Source of the DNA: a virus
Virus record (IMG/VR): IMGVR_UViG_3300034109_000594
Span: 1 to 48,890 of that record
Reading direction: 5' to 3' (one strand)
Length of the DNA: 48,890 nucleotides
Under the pieces are notes generated by a model. That model worked only from the letters and a program-made list of their open reading frames with translations. It was not told the origin of the DNA and did no database searches. Below are positions 875-10,358 of the stretch, piece after piece. The translations under genes and the position numbers were made by a program. Numbering within the stretch: position 1 is the first letter of the stretch; every line of letters starts with the position of its first letter.

Positions 875-1656
875 TGGCTACGTGCTACGGATACGGTCGA
901 GCCAGCACCGACAAGCAGGAACTCACCGAGCAGGTGCAGTCCAAGTCGGTCAAGGAAAAGTACTCCGCCCTGCTCAAGCCCAAGGGCGTCAAGTGGGGCG
1001 GGTGGTACTACGACGCGGCGGTCTCGGGCAGCAAGCCGTTCACCGAGCGGCCCGCTGGCCTGCGCATGTGGATGAACCTCCAGCCCGGGGACTACGTGGT
1101 CACGCACCACAGCGACCGTGCGTTCCGTGACACGGCCGACGGCCTACGGACCTCGGCCCTGTTCCGGGCGAGGGGCGTCGTGCTTGTGATGCCTGACATC
1201 CCGCACGATCTGGAGACTGCGGACGGCGAGATGATGGCGACCATTCAGTTCGCATTGAATCTCCGCGAGCGCCGCAAGGTGGCGGAGCGTACCGCCGCTG
1301 CCATGCGCGTGCTGTCCGAGCGCGGCGTCCGGTTCGGCGGGGCCCGGCAGAGCACGCCAATCGGCTGGCGGTGGGGCGGCGCGGGCTACGTCGAGGACGC
1401 GGAGGAGCGGGCCCGCGTCGAGCAGATGGCCCAGTGGTACGAGTCCGGCCTGTCGCTGGAACGCATCGAGATGCGTGTGTCCTACCCGCCGTACCAGTGG
1501 AAGAGGCGCAGCACTAGCAGTCGCTTCGGAAACTGGTCTCGTCGGTACGTGGCGTTCGCTCTGGAGGCTCGTCGTCTTGGCTATCCGAAGGTCTTCCTGA
1601 ATGGTCGGAGACGCAAGACCGCAGCGCGTCCAGCGCATCAAGCATCCGCGACTTGA
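874..1656 (+). CDS. Serine recombinase / resolvase family protein
   Basis: The N-terminus carries the resolvase signature GYGRASTDKQ, with Ser11 in the position of the catalytic serine that attacks DNA. It continues with a resolvase-like core (VVTHHSDRAFRD at about 75-86, and a basic helix LNLRERRKVAERTAAAMR at about 128-145 matching the long E-helix region). The C-terminal part (about 165-260) is basic and could bind DNA. At 260 residues it is longer than classic resolvases or invertases (about 185) and far shorter than large serine integrases (450 or more). The likely role is resolution, inversion or another DNA rearrangement. Its last 143 bases overlap the opposing sigma-factor gene. A tyrosine integrase also exists at 9507-10358, so this enzyme is probably not the main integrase. 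Confidence 0.85.
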   Translation: MATCYGYGRASTDKQELTEQVQSKSVKEKYSALLKPKGVKWGGWYYDAAVSGSKPFTERPAGLRMWMNLQPGDYVVTHHSDRAFRDTADGLRTSALFRARGVVLVMPDIPHDLETADGEMMATIQFALNLRERRKVAERTAAAMRVLSERGVRFGGARQSTPIGWRWGGAGYVEDAEERARVEQMAQWYESGLSLERIEMRVSYPPYQWKRRSTSSRFGNWSRRYVAFALEARRLGYPKVFLNGRRRKTAARPAHQASAT

Positions 1657-2116
1657 TCGTCCGCCAGTCCCTGCCTCGGTCTCTTCCGATGGCGTTGAGG
1701 GACTTGCCCTCTAAGACGTGGGCCTCGATGAGTTCCCTGTCCTCCGGCGGCAGCAGGCGCAAGCATGCCATGGCCTGCTGCCGCTGGTCGGTGGCGAACG
1801 ATATGCCGAGGGCCTTGCCGAGATCGATGCGCTCGTTGGCCGCTTCCTTCGATCGCTGCACACGCTTCACTTCCTTGAGAAGGGCGTGGCGGATGGCCGA
1901 CCCGTAGTACGTGGTCGGCTTCGACTTCGACCGATCGTAGGTGAACGACGCCTCGACGACAGCCAACTCCGCTGCACCATTCAGGTCGCAGTGTCGAATC
2001 AGCCGGGCGTAGCACGGGTGCCGAGCGACGAACATTCGCACGGCAGCAGGCACGAGCCCGAGCGCTTCTTCCGCCATCGCCTTCTGCGATGACGACAGCC
2101 GACGCTTCTTCTTCAT
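1514..2116 (-). CDS. Phage sigma-70-like RNA polymerase sigma factor
   Basis: This 200-residue protein has the layout of a small sigma factor. A helical N-terminal part (about 15-90) resembles region 2: AELAVVEASFTYDRSKS, then TTYYGSAIRHALLKEVKR, like the A(W)xxIRxAL segment of sigma region 2. A C-terminal part (about 113-165) resembles region 4: LRLLPPEDRELIEAHVLEGKS, then AIGRDRGRDWRTIKSRM with helix-turn-helix character. The last 35 residues are polar. The start is ATG 2116, preceded by GAGGCAGATGCG; its A-T-G-A overlaps the stop of the small Cys-rich frame upstream. The 3' end overlaps the convergent serine recombinase. It could redirect host RNA polymerase to phage promoters, and the repeated CGCCATAAC motif is a candidate target (inference). 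Confidence 0.7.
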   Translation of the reverse strand: MKKKRRLSSSQKAMAEEALGLVPAAVRMFVARHPCYARLIRHCDLNGAAELAVVEASFTYDRSKSKPTTYYGSAIRHALLKEVKRVQRSKEAANERIDLGKALGISFATDQRQQAMACLRLLPPEDRELIEAHVLEGKSLNAIGRDRGRDWRTIKSRMLDALDALRSCVSDHSGRPSDSQDDEPPERTPRTDETSFRSDC

Positions 2117-2430
2117 CGCATCTGCCTCACCCACGAGTCGGCCCGCCACGTTCGGGCGCACGCCTTCTCATGGCAGCGCGGGCACAGCGTCGGCTCGCAC
2201 CGCAGGCCGTGGCTGTCCACGCCCACCGTCGCCGGGCGGGAGCCGCAGTCAGCGCAGTCGGGAGCGGAGCCTGTTGAGCACGCCGAGGGAGCGGGGTCGG
2301 CCGCCGCCTGCTTCCTCGGTGTACGATCCGTCGCTGACTGTCGACAGGGGCTCGTACTCGATCGCCCCGTTGGCTTGCCGGAGCGCTTCCTGCGCCTGCC
2401 GGGCCCTGTCCCTGAACTTGTAGACGGCAC
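2113..2430 (-). CDS. Possible small zinc-finger protein
   Basis: This frame ends with TGA at 2113-2115, overlapping the sigma-factor ATG as ATGA. Its C-terminal part contains CADC, then CEPTLCPRC and HEKAC, a cysteine pattern suggestive of a zinc ribbon. A GTG at 2430 follows GGAGGTGGGT, a good ribosome site. However, the first two thirds are Arg/Ser/Pro-rich and overlap the membrane-protein gene 2249-2593 by 182 bases, which is typical of a shadow frame. A later GTG at 2220 would give only 35 residues and lose the first CxxC. The coupling and cysteines argue that some product is made; the start is uncertain. Confidence 0.35.
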   Translation of the reverse strand: MPSTSSGTGPGRRRKRSGKPTGRSSTSPCRQSATDRTPRKQAAADPAPSACSTGSAPDCADCGSRPATVGVDSHGLRCEPTLCPRCHEKACARTWRADSWVRQMR

Positions 2431-3861: not shown

Positions 3862-4196
3862 GCGCGGCTCCTCGCGCCATGGACGTGGGCCGCGAAGACG
3901 TGCATGTCGGCGAGCCGCACGGTGATCATCCACTCGCCGCCGTTCTTGCGGTGGCACACCGCCGGGATCGCCCCAGCCTTGGCCGCGTCGGTGGACGCCT
4001 GCGCCATGGCGTTGTCGATGTTGAGCCGCTCGACGCGCTTGCACTCGAAGTGCAGGCCCGGCAGTTCGTCGACCACGACGTCGCTGTCACCGGCCGTGCC
4101 GCAGTACTGCTGCGTGCGGCGTGCCGTGTAGCCCATCGCACTGAACTGGGCGGCAAGTTCCCTCTCTCCGTTGGCACCCTTGGCACGACTGTTCAT
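3858..4196 (-). CDS. Holliday-junction-resolvase-like PD-(D/E)XK nuclease
   Basis: The 112-residue protein fits the small phage/archaeal resolvase-type nuclease plan. It has an N-terminal SRAKGANGERELAAQ helix with the conserved Glu, then YTARRTQQY, then GDSDVVVDELPGLHFECKR, where D37/D39 and E51-x-K53 form the metal-binding PD-(D/E)XK set. This is followed by NIDNAMAQASTDA and HRKNGGEWMITVRL. The expected role is cutting branched recombination or replication intermediates before packaging. It sits in the same operon as ERF and exonuclease genes, which suits that role. ATG 4196 overlaps the HNH gene's stop by one base. Confidence 0.75.
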   Translation of the reverse strand: MNSRAKGANGERELAAQFSAMGYTARRTQQYCGTAGDSDVVVDELPGLHFECKRVERLNIDNAMAQASTDAAKAGAIPAVCHRKNGGEWMITVRLADMHVFAAHVHGARSRA

Positions 4197-4576
4197 CACT
4201 TTCCGGCGTTCCGTCGCCGCTCCTGTTTCGCCCACTCTGGCAACTCGGTCGGGTCCTCCTTTAGGCCCGCCCTCCCCTTCAGCCCGGCAAGAAACTTCAG
4301 GTCGACCTCGCCGTCCTCTTCTTCCTTCGCCTTCAGGATGTGGCCCAGCGTCAGCGGCTTGCCCGAGATGCCTGCGTGGTATGCGCGGTGGCACTCCTCG
4401 CAGACGAGGATCAGGTTCCGATGGTGGTGCGGGTCACGCCCTCTCCTGCCGACGATGTGGTGCAGTTCGCACCGCTTGCCCGGGCGGTACTTCCGCCAGT
4501 AGCACACAGCACACCGCTCGCTTTGGAATGCGTACGCCTCCAGCCACTTGCGGTCGGGCTCCTTCTTACGAGCCAT
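4196..4576 (-). CDS. HNH endonuclease
   Basis: The 126-residue protein carries a full HNH motif. A zinc pair C22-x2-C25 comes first, ELHHIVGR holds the HH (39-40), RNLILVC holds N54, and CEECHRAYH holds the second zinc pair C59/C62 and a final His. The tail (about 75-126) is charged. HNH nucleases cut DNA by a metal-assisted His-Me-finger mechanism. Small free-standing phage HNH proteins may be homing nucleases or may assist packaging or recombination; the terminase genes are 35 kb away, so the recombination operon is the local context. ATG 4576 lies within the end of the upstream gene (11-base overlap). Confidence 0.85.
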   Translation of the reverse strand: MARKKEPDRKWLEAYAFQSERCAVCYWRKYRPGKRCELHHIVGRRGRDPHHHRNLILVCEECHRAYHAGISGKPLTLGHILKAKEEEDGEVDLKFLAGLKGRAGLKEDPTELPEWAKQERRRNAGK

Positions 4577-5437: not shown

Positions 5438-5762
5438 CGTCGTCTTCCTCCATGTCCAACATCTCCTCGGCCTGACGCATGGCAGTCGATGCGGCGATGA
5501 GCCACTTCGCCATGGCCTCCACCTGATCCGCGTTCTCCAGAATGCAGACGGCCTCCGTCTGCAAGGTGACGCACGGGCGGTCGACCGGAAACGACGCCGT
5601 CAGCAGGTGGCGCGGCGTCTCGCGGTACTCGTCCACGTTGCACATGTCCTTCGCCAGCATCGAGTTCGCCGAGCCGTTGCGGTACGCCAGCGTGACGGCC
5701 CATCGGCTGCCCTGCGTGACGATGCACAGCGACTCGTGGTCTTCGCTTGGCATCGTGTTCAT
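5418..5762 (-). CDS. Hypothetical 114-aa protein, acidic tail
   Basis: ATG 5762 overlaps the helicase stop as ATGA. The product looks like an alpha/beta soluble protein (SLCIVTQGSRWAVTLAYRNG strands, then a helix DQVEAMAKWLIAASTAMRQAEEM) with a very acidic end (MEEDDDESDAA). No family was recognised. The last 20 bases overlap the small membrane protein gene. It may be a helicase partner, judging only from tight coupling. Confidence 0.6.
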   Translation of the reverse strand: MNTMPSEDHESLCIVTQGSRWAVTLAYRNGSANSMLAKDMCNVDEYRETPRHLLTASFPVDRPCVTLQTEAVCILENADQVEAMAKWLIAASTAMRQAEEMLDMEEDDDESDAA

Positions 5763-7291
5763 GCGGGCACCTTCGACAGTTCCCTCTTGATCGCCCTGAC
5801 CAGCCACTCGTTGCCGGGGCTGCGGCGCATCGTCCGCAGAATCTTCTGGAGGTCCTGCCTCGGGATGGTCCGCACGGGCTGGCCCTTGTAGGGGCCCCAC
5901 AGCATCCGGGCTTCCCGTCGCTTCGGCGTCTCGACCGTGGGCTTGCCGGTCACGTCCACCGACTCGGAGTCGAACTGCACGCCGACGCGAATCTGCGCAC
6001 GCCGCTCCTTCTCCGCGGCCATCTCTGCGAGGGCACGCTCCTTGTCGAGCCGCTCCTGCTCCCGCAGTTCGGCCTCGACCTCGGCGAGTTCGACCTCCTC
6101 GTCCTCGGATCGCTTGAGAAGTTTCTCGCGGTACTTCTCCACCTTGGCGGGCGGCAGCACCACGTCGATGGCCGAGCACACGCGATGGAACTTCGTGTTG
6201 TCTTGGTAGTCGAGGATGCGGCAGTGAGGCTTCGGCCCCTGTGCGATGGCGAGCCGACGCAGGTACTCGGTCGGCTGCCCGTCCACGACGCCCTTGCCCG
6301 GGCGGAGGGCGCGGCCCACGATCTGGAGGTAGCGCTGGAGGCTGCGAGTCGGCATCAGCAGATGCAGTTCCTCGACGGCGGAGTCCCACCCCATGGTCAG
6401 GATGGAGATGTTCGCGATGAGGCTGGCCTCGCCCGACTCGTAGCGGTGCATCTCCTCCTGCCGCTGCGTAACGCTCATCCCCGAGTGGACGAGGGCGCAC
6501 TTCACGCCGTACCGCCCCTCGATCATGTCGCGGAACGCGATGGCGTGGGCGCGGTTGTAGCAGTAGACGGCGCCGCGCTTCTTGTGGTTCGCCGCCACGA
6601 GTGCGGCGTGCTCGTGGATCAGCGCCTCGTCCTTGAGGATGCGAGTCACGTCGTCGGCGGAGAAGTCACCGAGCCCGCCACGGATGGCGCTCGTGTCCAG
6701 CCCGCGGAGCACGACTCGCTTGGCCGAGATCGGCGTGAGCCAGCCGTGTGCAATGGCTGGCACCACGCCGTACTGGACAGGGCACCTTCCGTAGTACCGC
6801 ATCGCGGGGCTGCCGTGAGGGGTTGCTGTCAAGCCACACACTACGGCGCCCCGCGAGCGGTACAGGTCGAGCAGGTCCTTGGCTGGCCCGGTGCAGCCAT
6901 AGTGGGCCTCGTCCACGATGACGAGGTCCGGCGAGAACTTCGCACCCCGGTTCCCTGTGAGCAGCGACTGGAGCGAGGCCACGACGATCGGGGCGTCCGA
7001 GCGGGCGTACTTGTCAGCCTGCTCCACCTCGACGTCTCGGAGCCTGTACTCCTCGATGCCCTTGGCGATCTGCCCGCACAGCACCACGCGAGGATCGATC
7101 ACCAACGTCCGGCGGTAACGCTCGGACAGCATGGCGGCGACCAGCGTCTTTCCTGTCCCGGTGGCGAGTTCCCCGAGTGCGATCCCGTCCGAGCACATGG
7201 CACCATGCAGCGACTCGACGGAGTACTGCTGGTAGTCACGAGGCTTCGGCCGGGGGTCGACGAACAGGGTGCGAGCAGGGTGTTGCATCAC
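5759..7291 (-). CDS. SF2 DEAD/DEAH-box helicase
   Basis: The 510-residue protein shows the superfamily 2 helicase motifs in order: a Q-like start (RDYQQYSVESL), Walker A ATGTGKT (43-49), DEAH (127-130), TATPHG motif III (155-160), and in the second RecA domain ALVHSGM, then ILTMGWDSA and motif VI QIVGRALRPG. This set matches the ResIII/type-III-restriction-like helicase group, ATP-driven DNA translocases often found in phage replication modules. The C-terminal quarter (about 375-510) is a charged helical region, then a basic tail. Length is usual for phage copies. It may unwind DNA for replication or recombination with the ERF and exonuclease genes upstream. ATG 7291 (a second ATG follows at once) overlaps the HTH gene's stop. 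Confidence 0.9.
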   Translation of the reverse strand: MMQHPARTLFVDPRPKPRDYQQYSVESLHGAMCSDGIALGELATGTGKTLVAAMLSERYRRTLVIDPRVVLCGQIAKGIEEYRLRDVEVEQADKYARSDAPIVVASLQSLLTGNRGAKFSPDLVIVDEAHYGCTGPAKDLLDLYRSRGAVVCGLTATPHGSPAMRYYGRCPVQYGVVPAIAHGWLTPISAKRVVLRGLDTSAIRGGLGDFSADDVTRILKDEALIHEHAALVAANHKKRGAVYCYNRAHAIAFRDMIEGRYGVKCALVHSGMSVTQRQEEMHRYESGEASLIANISILTMGWDSAVEELHLLMPTRSLQRYLQIVGRALRPGKGVVDGQPTEYLRRLAIAQGPKPHCRILDYQDNTKFHRVCSAIDVVLPPAKVEKYREKLLKRSEDEEVELAEVEAELREQERLDKERALAEMAAEKERRAQIRVGVQFDSESVDVTGKPTVETPKRREARMLWGPYKGQPVRTIPRQDLQKILRTMRRSPGNEWLVRAIKRELSKVPA

Positions 7292-7629
7292 GCTGCCTCC
7301 GTCGCGAGGCGGCGGCGAAGCGAGGCGTACATCCGCTGGAGCCGCTCGTTCCGGTAGTTGGCGCCCACGTAGCGGGTGGCCCGCTCACTCGGGCTCCAAC
7401 TCTCCCTGATGGCTGCGGCCCGCTCTTCGATCTCCTGCGGGGTAGGGTCCGTACGGTTCGGGAGACCCCTCCTCAACGGCGGGCGGCGTGTGTTCGTGAA
7501 CTTCAGGTAGGCGTAGAGCGACGTCTTCGAGATGCCGCACGCCATCGCCGACTTCATCACCGACACGCCCGACAGGTACATCTCCACCGCCTTCGACACC
7601 TGCATCGACCTCGACCCGATCCGATCCAT
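7288..7629 (-). CDS. Small helix-turn-helix DNA-binding protein
   Basis: The start ATG 7629 is preceded by AAGGAGGGATTCCAC, a near-perfect ribosome site, which decides it over longer frames. The 113-residue product begins with a basic helix. Residues about 10-45 (QVSKAVEMYLSGVSVMKSAM, then CGISKTSLYAYLKF) form a typical helix-turn-helix with recognition helix KTSLYAYL. The C-terminal half holds PTPQEIEERAAAIRESWSPSER, a helical segment seen in other small phage proteins. Likely a transcriptional regulator or replication accessory protein. More than half of the gene is overlapped in another frame by 7385-7795. Confidence 0.65.
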   Translation of the reverse strand: MDRIGSRSMQVSKAVEMYLSGVSVMKSAMACGISKTSLYAYLKFTNTRRPPLRRGLPNRTDPTPQEIEERAAAIRESWSPSERATRYVGANYRNERLQRMYASLRRRLATEAA

Positions 7630-7795
7630 GTGGAATCCCTCCTTGAAGAAACGTGCGAACAAACAGGACTGACTGGAGTGCCCTGACCTCCTCGATGAGG
7701 CGTGGCACATCGACGTTGACGATCCTCGGCAGGACTTCGAGCGACAGGTTCTCGATCCGGTACTCGATCTCCTTGATCTCGCGGCTACTGAGCAC
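7385..7795 (-). CDS. Small helical protein overlapping the HTH gene
   Basis: GTG 7795 follows AAGGAGGTGGCGA, a strong ribosome site, and overlaps the end of the ERF gene by 11 bases, so translation here is likely. The first 55 residues (REIKEIEYRIENLSLEVL, then VDVPRLIEEVRALQS) read as a real helical protein. After about residue 56 the frame continues another 80 residues inside the HTH gene, with a composition rich in Gly/Val/Glu/Asp that looks like a shadow. So either two genes really overlap by 245 bases, or the functional part is short and the tail is tolerated. Function unknown. Confidence 0.5.
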   Translation of the reverse strand: MLSSREIKEIEYRIENLSLEVLPRIVNVDVPRLIEEVRALQSVLFVRTFLQGGIPHGSDRVEVDAGVEGGGDVPVGRVGDEVGDGVRHLEDVALRLPEVHEHTPPAVEEGSPEPYGPYPAGDRRAGRSHQGELEPE

Positions 7796-8459
7796 TCGCC
7801 ACCTCCTTGGGTTTCGGGAGCGGCTTCATCGCCTCCCGGTCACGACGCAGGCCCATCAGTTCGTCCTCGGTCATGCGGCCAGCAGCCGCAGACAGGGCGG
7901 CCTTCGCGAGCACCGTGTCTCGGTCCTGCTCGGTGCGCGCTGCGACGAGTGCCTGTCTGGCGAGCGAGAGGGCCGCATTGCTTTTGGCCTTCGGCCCCTC
8001 CAGACCGGCACCGTCGAGGTCGGAATCCGCGGCCACCCCGCAGAGGCAGGCCGCGTGGTTGCGGCGGAAGTACGTCGTCTCCGACAGAATCTTCTGCGGC
8101 TGCTTCTCGGTGATCACCGACATGGCGCGCTCGAACTGGCCCGACGTGTGGCGGAGCGTCGTGACCAGCAGTTGCTGGTCGCCGATCACGACCGTCTTGC
8201 TGGCGAGGTCGAGGCCGTGCTTCGAGAGGGCCGGGGTGACGGCGTCGATCACCTCGTCGAGCGTGGCGTACATCCCGTAGTTGCCCTTGGCGTTCTTCTT
8301 GACGGGGGCAAACTCCGCCCGAGCACGGCACTTCGCCGCACACAGGACGTCGGTGAACTCCGACTCCATCGATGGGTAGTACGAGGTCTGCGGCTTGAGT
8401 CGGGAGTCGCGGCGGCACACGATGCCGTCGAGGTCGGTGGGTTCAGTCTGCTCGGTCAT
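7785..8459 (-). CDS. erf: ERF-family single-strand annealing protein
   Basis: The 224-residue protein carries the ERF family core: APVKKNAKGNYGMYATLDEV, IDAVTPALSKHGLDL, then strands LLVTTLRHTSGQ and a second conserved region ILSETTYFRRNHAACLCGVA. ERF proteins bind single-stranded DNA and anneal homologous strands. In P22-like phages this circularises or recombines the genome. The tail (about 150-224) is helical and charged. Start ATG 8459 shares a base with the exonuclease stop, so annealing protein and exonuclease are made together, as in Red-type pairs. A longer upstream frame exists but lies within the exonuclease gene. Confidence 0.8.
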   Translation of the reverse strand: MTEQTEPTDLDGIVCRRDSRLKPQTSYYPSMESEFTDVLCAAKCRARAEFAPVKKNAKGNYGMYATLDEVIDAVTPALSKHGLDLASKTVVIGDQQLLVTTLRHTSGQFERAMSVITEKQPQKILSETTYFRRNHAACLCGVAADSDLDGAGLEGPKAKSNAALSLARQALVAARTEQDRDTVLAKAALSAAAGRMTEDELMGLRRDREAMKPLPKPKEVASAQ

Positions 8460-9316
8460 CAGTCGATCTCCTTGAGGGACCACGCGGGGAACTTGAGTTC
8501 GTGGATGTGGCCGTACCCAGCGGGCAGCCAGTTGCCGGTCTCGCGCCGCACCTCGATCTCTTCGAGGTCGTCGGCGATCCACTGGACGCATCGCTCGACG
8601 AGCGCGTCAGGGAGATACACCACCTGCACTTCGTGCGGCGGGACTGTGGACATGGCGACGAACACCATGCCGCCGTGGCCTATGCCAGCGGCCTTGGCGA
8701 TCTCCCCGTAGAGGGCCGCCTGATAGTGGTAGCCGTGGTCGAGCACCGCCTTGTGGAAGTCATCGAGCGGACGCGGGGTGCGGCACGTCTTCCAATCGAG
8801 CACGGTGCCGAGGTGGGTGACCGCGTCGAAGCGGCAGCGGAGCAGGTGGCCGTCGTCGCGATGGTGGATCGCCGACAACTCGTGCCACGCGATCTGCTCG
8901 TACAGTTCGACGGCCTTCGAGTTCTTGAAGAACTGGTCGAGGATCGCCTCGCAGGTGGCGAGGTCGGCCGGGCTGGCGAGCGGCAGGTCCGGGTCCTGAT
9001 CGGCCGCCCACGCCTTGGCCGCCGCCGAGGAGGAGAGTCCACCGGAAGCGGTCAAGTACTCGGCCGGGATTTCCGAGAGGTGACCGCGGTATTTCCCGGG
9101 CCCGAACTCAAGGGCGGCATGAACCACCGACCCGAGTTGCAATGCCCCCGAAGAGAAGGGAGACTGGGATCGGGTGACGTAGCGCTGGTCGTACCAGACC
9201 GGGCCACGGTGCCTGAAGTCCCACAGCGGGGACTTCGAGGGGCATGGCAGCCCGTGGTAGACGCGGTTCGGGAGACCTTCGACGAGAAGTACCTGCCCGG
9301 CCGCCAATGTTTCCAT
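8459..9316 (-). CDS. PD-(D/E)XK exonuclease, recombination partner of ERF
   Basis: The 285-residue protein matches the phage exonuclease (PDDEXK_12 / RecE- or Cas4-like) plan. LGSVVHAALEFGP is the first conserved His/Glu motif (about 68). HLLRCRFDAVT supplies the first Asp, LDWKTCRTP is the (D/E)xK site, and HGYHYQAALYGE is the downstream Q..Y motif. It should resect double-stranded ends to give single strands for ERF. Start ATG 9316 is chosen because farther upstream the frame crosses tRNA-derived DNA that is unlikely to be coding; starts at 9421 and 9463 remain possible. The ribosome site before 9316 (GACCTCCCGGCCGCC) is weak. Confidence 0.8.
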   Translation of the reverse strand: METLAAGQVLLVEGLPNRVYHGLPCPSKSPLWDFRHRGPVWYDQRYVTRSQSPFSSGALQLGSVVHAALEFGPGKYRGHLSEIPAEYLTASGGLSSSAAAKAWAADQDPDLPLASPADLATCEAILDQFFKNSKAVELYEQIAWHELSAIHHRDDGHLLRCRFDAVTHLGTVLDWKTCRTPRPLDDFHKAVLDHGYHYQAALYGEIAKAAGIGHGGMVFVAMSTVPPHEVQVVYLPDALVERCVQWIADDLEEIEVRRETGNWLPAGYGHIHELKFPAWSLKEID

Positions 9317-9335
9317 GGCGGCCGGGAGGTCGGAG

Positions 9336-9382
9336 TCGGGGCGACACGATTCGAACGTGCGACCTCTACGTCCCGAACGTAG
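9336..9382 (-). other. attP: Phage attachment site core: 3' half of tRNA-Pro(CGG)
   Basis: Read on the - strand this is the 3' half of a tRNA. It has anticodon stem CTACG/CGTAG around a 7-base loop TTCGGGA (anticodon CGG, G37), a 5-base variable region AGGTC, T stem GCACG/CGTGT around TTCGAAT, and the acceptor strand CGCCCCG plus discriminator A. The 5' half is missing: upstream bases do not pair with CGCCCCG and no proper D arm is present. The loop, T-loop and order closely resemble bacterial proline tRNAs. A half tRNA beside a tyrosine integrase is the usual form of attP. No CCA follows (CTCC instead). Confidence 0.85.
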
Positions 9383-9444
9383 CGCTTCCTCGCCGCCGTC
9401 ACCGTGAAAGGTGTCGGCCATGTCTTCATCAGTCAGTTGGGTGG

Positions 9445-9472
9445 TTGAGTCGCTGAACGTCATCGGTATTCT
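9445..9472 (+). promoter_or_regulatory. Possible sigma-70 promoter of the integrase
   Basis: TTGAGT (9445-9450) and TATTCT (9467-9472) are separated by 16 bases and each match 4 of 6 positions of the standard -35 and -10 boxes. Transcription would begin near 9479 and leave a short leader before ATG 9507. Between them and the start, GTACAGG occurs twice in tandem (GTACAGGGGTACAGG, 9491-9505), a possible operator or ribosome-site region. Confidence 0.35.
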
Positions 9473-9506
9473 GTCTGAAAAGGACGTAGTGTACAGGGGT
9501 ACAGGT

Positions 9507-10358
9507 ATGGGGTCAATGGGTGAGGTGGCTGGGAACTACCTGCTGGGAAGAGACGTCTCGCGGGGATACGCGGCGAACATCCGGAGGACGGCGGCGAAGA
9601 TGGATGCCGCTGGGATCACCCCTGCGAACATCGATGGCACGCGCGTCAACATCTGGCTCTCCTCCATGAGAACGTCTGGTCTGTCGCCGATCAGTATACG
9701 GTCTGAGCGCCGCAGCGCAATCACAATCTGGCGGCATGGGATCGAGATCGAGGTGATCAAGAATCCCATCCGCCATGTCGTCCAGCCGAAGGTCCCTCGC
9801 AGGGTCACTCGTGCCTTCCGACGCGACGATCTTACGGGTGCTGTCAATAGGTTCAGCGATCTCAATATCTCGGCGCGTTTTCGGGGTAGCGGCTGCCCGA
9901 AGGCGCTCTGGCTCACCGCGTGGACCATGTTCGTCTACGAAACCGGGGCCCGATTCTCCGACGCCTACTCCCTCCGTGGCGAAGCACTCGTTCACGGCGG
10001 GGTTGCGTGGACAGCCAGCAAGACGGGCCTGCCCGTGATCAAGCGGCTGTCGCAGAGTACCGCGGAACGCTTGCAGCAACTGCTGGCACTCTCGCCGGAC
10101 GGCACCGTGTTCCAGTGGGCCGTGTCGAGGCGCCACGCTTTCGCCGCGATCCGCGAGGCGTACGAGGCGGCGGGCCTGAAGGGCGGCCGGACGCAATGGC
10201 TGCGGCGAAGCGGGGCGACCCACGCAGAGATGGACCGGAAGGGGGCCGCGATGGAGTATCTGGCTCACGCCACGCCCGGGCTGGCCGAGACGAACTACCT
10301 CGACTACACGCAACTCCTCGACCGGATCGCAGCGCCACGGCCGCTGGACGCAGGGTGA
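9507..10358 (+). CDS. int: Tyrosine recombinase (phage integrase)
   Basis: The 283-residue protein has an N-terminal SAM-like core-binding domain (about 1-95) and a C-terminal catalytic domain. ETGARFSDAY carries the first catalytic Arg, TASKTGLPV the beta-hairpin Lys, and TQWLRRSGATHAEM matches the HxLRxTxAT region, where the usual first His is not obvious. LAHATPGLAETNYLDY carries the second His and the Tyr nucleophile. The length is usual for phage integrases. ATG 9507 is favoured by the upstream AGGGGTACAGGT and possible promoter; an upstream frame reaches 9411. It would recombine the adjacent tRNA-Pro-derived attP with the host gene. Confidence 0.9.
   Translation: MGSMGEVAGNYLLGRDVSRGYAANIRRTAAKMDAAGITPANIDGTRVNIWLSSMRTSGLSPISIRSERRSAITIWRHGIEIEVIKNPIRHVVQPKVPRRVTRAFRRDDLTGAVNRFSDLNISARFRGSGCPKALWLTAWTMFVYETGARFSDAYSLRGEALVHGGVAWTASKTGLPVIKRLSQSTAERLQQLLALSPDGTVFQWAVSRRHAFAAIREAYEAAGLKGGRTQWLRRSGATHAEMDRKGAAMEYLAHATPGLAETNYLDYTQLLDRIAAPRPLDAG

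Follow-up and report, generated by a model that had tools for sequence, protein, structure and literature searches.

The window (the whole stretch of DNA that was analysed, 48,890 nucleotides) is a 48.9-kb linear piece of a phage genome of about 61 kb. In it, a gene for a tyrosine integrase diverges from a gene for an exonuclease, and the 3' half of a proline tRNA gene lies inside the exonuclease gene. This arrangement is common to the window and three related phages, referred to here as L003, L075 and L077 (four phages in all). The features of the region are as follows.

1514–2161, minus strand: sigma-70 region 4 / Q-like regulator, the last gene on the exonuclease strand before the direction changes
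4196–4576, minus strand: HNH endonuclease-like protein, downstream on the exonuclease strand
5759–7291, minus strand: SF2 helicase (ResIII/Helicase_C), same operon as the exonuclease
7288–7710, minus strand: small helix-turn-helix (Psq-type) protein, same operon
7785–8459, minus strand: Erf-like single-strand annealing protein, the next gene of the exonuclease operon, its ATG overlapping the exonuclease stop (TGATGA)
8459–9463, minus strand: exonuclease VIII/RecE-like PD-(D/E)XK nuclease of 334 aa, with the core inside its first ~45 codons
9291–9330, minus strand: strong RNA hairpin directly after the core, in the window and the L003 phage only
9333–9386, minus strand: predicted attP common core, 54 bp identical to host tRNA-Pro(CGG) genes
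9336–9382, minus strand: tRNA-Pro(CGG) 3' half, comprising anticodon arm, variable region, T arm, acceptor 3' strand and discriminator A, with no encoded CCA
9488–9516, minus strand: predicted promoter of the exonuclease operon, TTGACC-17-TACACT, upstream of the core, both hexamer blocks conserved in four phages
9516–10358, plus strand: tyrosine integrase, divergent from the exonuclease; start at ATG 9516 assumed

Read on the minus strand from 9382 to 9336, the half-gene begins with the anticodon arm (CTACG-TTCGGGA-CGTAG, anticodon CGG), continues through AGGTC and the T arm (GCACG-TTCGAAT-CGTGT), and ends with the acceptor 3' strand CGCCCCG followed by A. A sequence-only reading of this DNA had described these parts of a proline tRNA as intact and the 5' half as absent, which agrees with our data: ARAGORN found no complete tRNA in the window, nor in a near-identical phage, IMGVR_UViG_3300042539_001144, whose circularised genome contains the core exactly once. 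The half-tRNA is the sole tRNA-like sequence in the phage, and scored 25.5 bits (E 0.0079) against the Rfam tRNA model, under the gathering score of 29. Because its fold energy was no better than that of shuffled sequences (z 0.24), the case rests on identity to host genes and not on folding. This identity spans 54 bp, slightly beyond the 47 of the initial reading, because it takes in the 3' strand of the D-stem and a few bases past the tRNA end (3 bp beyond the discriminator base). With host tRNA-Pro genes matched over such a length, chance resemblance is excluded.

We scanned about 85,000 bacterial and archaeal species using the 3' half, with the T-stem partly free, as query. The 68 contigs that matched were nearly all from Planctomycetota (Pirellulales, Planctomycetaceae and Thermoguttaceae MAGs). 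Going by record titles, the outliers were four Opitutus/Opitutae-type MAGs, one from Eremiobacterota and one Roseburia MAG, each of these carrying a different T arm; in addition, there were a few MAGs labelled Kuenenia. The genes matched exactly over 54 bp are complete tRNA-Pro(CGG) genes from Planctomycetota, for the most part Pirellulales, and the genomes sharing this longest identity include a Pirellulales MAG; when the host loci bearing the tRNA match were scanned with ARAGORN, a complete tRNA-Pro(CGG) was recovered at 100 of 102. As judged from these matches, the phage probably infects Planctomycetota of the order Pirellulales, and the core, which had been proposed as a sequence tag for finding the host, indeed appears to work as one to order level (Pirellulales and near relatives). 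Such a searchable tag yields an order-level host assignment for a phage group to which the annotated phage collection searched offers no close match: phage records returned nothing either to the left 25 kb of the window in a near-DNA search or to the integrase protein.

The three related phages differ from the window to increasing degrees. The L003 phage (contig 3300036406_001093) shares 84–86% identity in the integrase and 90% in the exonuclease, the L075 phage (contig 3300044619_000874) 66–69% and 55%, and the L077 phage (contig 3300042444_000200) 58–59% and 35%, respectively. Their T-stems vary likewise, with GCACG/CGTGT in the window, GGAGG/CCTCT in L003, GCTGG/CCAGT in L075 and GTCGG/CCGAT in L077. 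When the half-tRNA of a further phage, G005, was included, three pairs were changed on both sides, 98% of the cells were paired, and the T-stem covariation was 0.42 as compared to 0.09 in shuffles. Among 296 genomes of the best host's order, tRNA-Pro genes were found with the exact T-stems of the window, L003, L075 and G005 phages, whereas that of L077 was absent from every genome searched; the general tRNA pattern was matched in 84 of the 296 genomes, and a reversed-pattern control in none. The half-sites thus seem to follow host tRNA variants, as expected of attP. Given the 54-bp exact host match, and given that the compensated T-stems of the L003 and L075 phages recur in tRNA-Pro genes of the host order, the core is very probably the attP for tRNA-Pro(CGG), an assignment in which we have high confidence. 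No convincing repeats that could serve as arm-type integrase sites were seen around the core. All four contigs are circularly permuted unit-length genomes having phage DNA on both sides of the core; one of them, G001, carries a 127-bp direct terminal repeat, and the others are colinear but permuted. By this layout, the four contigs are the non-integrated form.

Two other contigs bear on the same tRNA. The G005 contig (L079 670–716, L112) is an unrelated 61-kb phage carrying the same tRNA-Pro(CGG) half, situated between its own integrase (~30% identical) and a small HTH ORF that, as judged by eye, is excisionase-like; by comparison, it is an ordinary attP. In the viral contig G006, a complete tRNA-Pro(CGG) (L076 12502–12577) lies close to the end; this contig, whose SF2 helicase is 27% like that of the window, is perhaps a provirus edge at the same tRNA.

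The attP role proposed in the initial reading was supported, with a tRNA 3' half beside a tyrosine integrase, a genome otherwise free of tRNAs and predicted attB sites sharing 54 identical bases. The intergenic placement, however, did not hold. Instead of occupying a gap between the divergent genes, the half-tRNA lies at about codons 27–44 of the exonuclease ORF, which extends from ATG 9463 to 8459; the integrase and exonuclease starts are only tens of bases apart, or overlap. The exonuclease matched PHROG 412 (E 3.8e-39) as well as Pfam PDDEXK_1 and DUF3799, and aligned with PDB entry 3h4r (E 5.5e-15) over profile positions 65–327; the nuclease domain starts near codon 61–65. The integrase scored 26.8 bits (E 5e-6) with Pfam Phage_integrase, just under the cut-off of 27.1, and had an E-value of 2.5e-15 with the PHROG integrase family; ATG 9507, ATG 9420 and GTG 9411 are other possible, earlier starts. 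In 9420–9463, a longer integrase ORF is possible, which would overlap the exonuclease head to head, the third codon positions of both being in register, and GACATGGCC/GGCCATGTC provides an ATG on both strands. Because the third codon positions of the two frames coincide, conservation in this segment is not assignable to one gene.

Upstream of the exonuclease, a single promoter-like site was found in 9250–9650, compared to 0.1 expected in shuffles. This predicted sigma-70-type promoter overlaps the integrase start and precedes the exonuclease, so that the core is located between it and the nuclease domain. Its TTGAC-17-TACACT pattern is invariant in the four phages, as are the blocks CATTGAC and CTGTACACT of the region. 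Directly after the core, the hairpin at 9291–9330 reaches −33 kcal/mol in the window (z −6.4) and −29 kcal/mol in the L003 phage, and is missing from the L075 and L077 phages. It holds ATG 9316, the first exonuclease start codon that would be left after integration. The hairpin has no T run and, as the terminator scan found no terminator-like site, we do not claim it as a terminator; in the window and L003 phages, it could insulate the genes after the core from host transcription.

Taken together, these features suggest a tailed phage of Planctomycetota that is temperate or, at the least, able to integrate. Its integrase would recombine the core with the matching 3' half in the host tRNA-Pro(CGG) gene, so that the host 5' half and the phage 3' half together make up a complete tRNA again; insertion into this gene is the prediction that follows from the sequence. 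In the circular form, the core sits within the 5' part of the exonuclease gene and downstream of its operon promoter. Integration would then leave the promoter and ~28 exonuclease codons beside the integrase, reading into host DNA, and put the nuclease domain and the Erf-helicase genes behind the rebuilt host tRNA. When junctions with four host loci were built in silico, a stop codon lay in frame a few codons ahead of the core, and codon 50 was the first possible exonuclease start. Only in the excised circle would the lytic recombination and replication genes be joined to their promoter, and we infer that the operon is off in the prophage, although it could be read from the host tRNA promoter. 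We consider this account as a whole, an attP core of an integrating tailed phage with promoter–operon separation acting as a switch, to be likely. The arrangement most likely works as an integration-controlled switch; for the switch function taken by itself, which is read from the anatomy, our confidence is a little short of even. More tentatively still, a family of Planctomycetota phages may turn off its lytic exonuclease-Erf-helicase operon by integration itself, rather than or besides by a repressor, with a core that stays open in either of two stop-free frames. If true, recombination by itself would suffice to disconnect the lytic genes, making for a simple genetic switch that is a mirror image of integration-dependent immunity.

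The position of the core within the exonuclease ORF could be trivial if the attP were an ordinary one lying in an untranslated leader, the true start being ATG 9316 (TTG/GTG in relatives) and any effect on expression incidental. In line with this, the RecE-type domain begins only near residue 61–65, and in-frame starts past the core are found in all four phages, with ATG 9316 in two and TTG/GTG in the others. A structure model from a four-row alignment (pLDDT 50, low confidence, and hence weak support only) leaves residues 1–44 unmodelled, with block means of 26–29. Against such a leader, ATG 9463 and the N-terminal residues (MT..D....DM) are conserved in the four phages, and ATG 9316 is buried in the very stable hairpin and not conserved in the L075 and L077 phages. 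Moreover, the length changes flanking the core compensate each other: the distance from ATG to core is 2, 2, 1, 1 (mod 3) and from core to stop 1, 1, 2, 2 (mod 3) in the window, L003, L075 and L077, respectively, keeping the exonuclease ORF open. The core is accordingly read as ALRSGRRGR in the window and L003 and as YVRDVEV in L075 and L077, whereas its third frame, which contains TAG, is used by none of the four. This argues for translation through attP, short of proof because each phage has starts after the core and the codon-position signal before the core comprises too few differences to decide. We regard the leader reading as rather unlikely; should the exonuclease start lie downstream of the core, the separation from the promoter would still hold.

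Two further alternatives concern the att site and its use. That the half-tRNA is a tRNA-derived decoy or regulatory element instead of an att site is very improbable. It can fold into two tRNA arms, but with the unremarkable fold energy given above, and it matches host genes base for base, unpaired and flanking positions included; it adjoins the integrase, and the unrelated G005 phage has the same half beside its own integrase. A phage that is essentially lytic, with integration as a rare event or side reaction, deserves more weight, and T7-like cyanophages with an integrase and a tRNA-Leu attP, for which integration without stable lysogeny was measured (PMC8776855), offer a precedent. Consistent with this possibility, searching about 790 Planctomycetota genomes with the integrase profile (sets of 27 tRNA-bearing, 392 phylum and 396 order genomes) revealed no prophage, only distant recombinases of ~30% identity, none with the exonuclease alongside. 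Neither exonuclease nor integrase was found at the 102 host tRNA-Pro loci, no attL/attR-flanked prophage at tRNA-Pro was seen in the genomes searched, and the proteins scanned included no recognisable repressor or excisionase. Still, a sample with a single genome for each species is thin ground for detecting prophages, and four diverged phages have all retained the integrase together with a matching attP, whose T-stem follows the host variants. An essentially lytic lifestyle therefore strikes us as the less plausible option, and integration into tRNA-Pro(CGG) as the preferred one. Neither a complete, folding tRNA at this place nor related prophages integrated elsewhere with a different core were encountered, the two outcomes that would have spoken against it.

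In its basic design, the site resembles those of tyrosine-integrase phages and genomic islands with a tRNA 3'-half attP, sharing the tyrosine integrase, the half-tRNA core, the exact match to a complete host gene and the predicted restoration of the tRNA. Here, however, the core is inside a phage protein-coding gene and not beside the integrase gene, and the host phylum is Planctomycetota. A tRNA-type attP within a phage ORF, whose integration truncates a phage protein and changes the regulatory state, is known from mycobacteriophage BPs and Cluster G/N/P phages. In BPs-type phages, attP is placed in the repressor, such that integration activates immunity; the BPs repressor is cotranscribed with the integrase, and truncation of its gene at the 3' end activates it by removing a degradation tag (PMC9262239, PMC4557955). 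In contrast, the gene concerned here encodes an exonuclease VIII/RecE-like lytic nuclease, is divergent from the integrase and hence not cotranscribed with it, and would be cut at its 5' end and presumably inactivated. In Tn916, the transfer genes are silent while integrated, their promoter being at the other end, and circularisation links them (PMC11658703, citing Celli and Trieu-Cuot 1998). The present locus likewise has promoter and operon on opposite att sides, linked only in the circle, as judged by anatomy and a predicted promoter. An insulating terminator is also located close to the end of Tn916 (PMC11658703), and the hairpin at 9291–9330, lacking a T run, may be compared to it. Whereas Tn916 is a conjugative element with loose target choice and antitermination, the present element is a phage with a tRNA target, and its core falls within coding sequence. 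The present case thus shares the logic of Tn916 and BPs-type phages and is a member of neither, because the gene is a lytic nuclease, divergent from the integrase and cut at its 5' end. The T7-like cyanophages S-TIP37 and P-SSP7 likewise have attP groups exactly matching tRNA-gene variants of different host groups (PMC8776855); they differ in having attP downstream of the integrase and in that integration without lysogeny was shown experimentally (PMC8776855). In the open-licence literature searched, we found no description of an attP inside a phage exonuclease gene.

By inspection, the usual HxxR motif of the integrase is QWLRR in all four phages, and the presumed catalytic R, K, R, H and Y residues are kept in each. 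The integrase C-termini, likewise by inspection, end in DAG, PLG, GIE and LDQ in the four phages, with no ssrA-like tags among them; C-terminal tags of this kind on repressor and integrase characterise BPs-type immunity. Far from attP, at 874–1656 on the plus strand, the window encodes a second recombinase of 260 aa with a serine resolvase/invertase N-terminal domain (Pfam Resolvase, E 1.5e-21). To the left of the window, in the plus-strand early region of the G001 contig (7018–9914; L096), an AAA (MoxR-like) ATPase adjoins a VWA/metallopeptidase-like protein.
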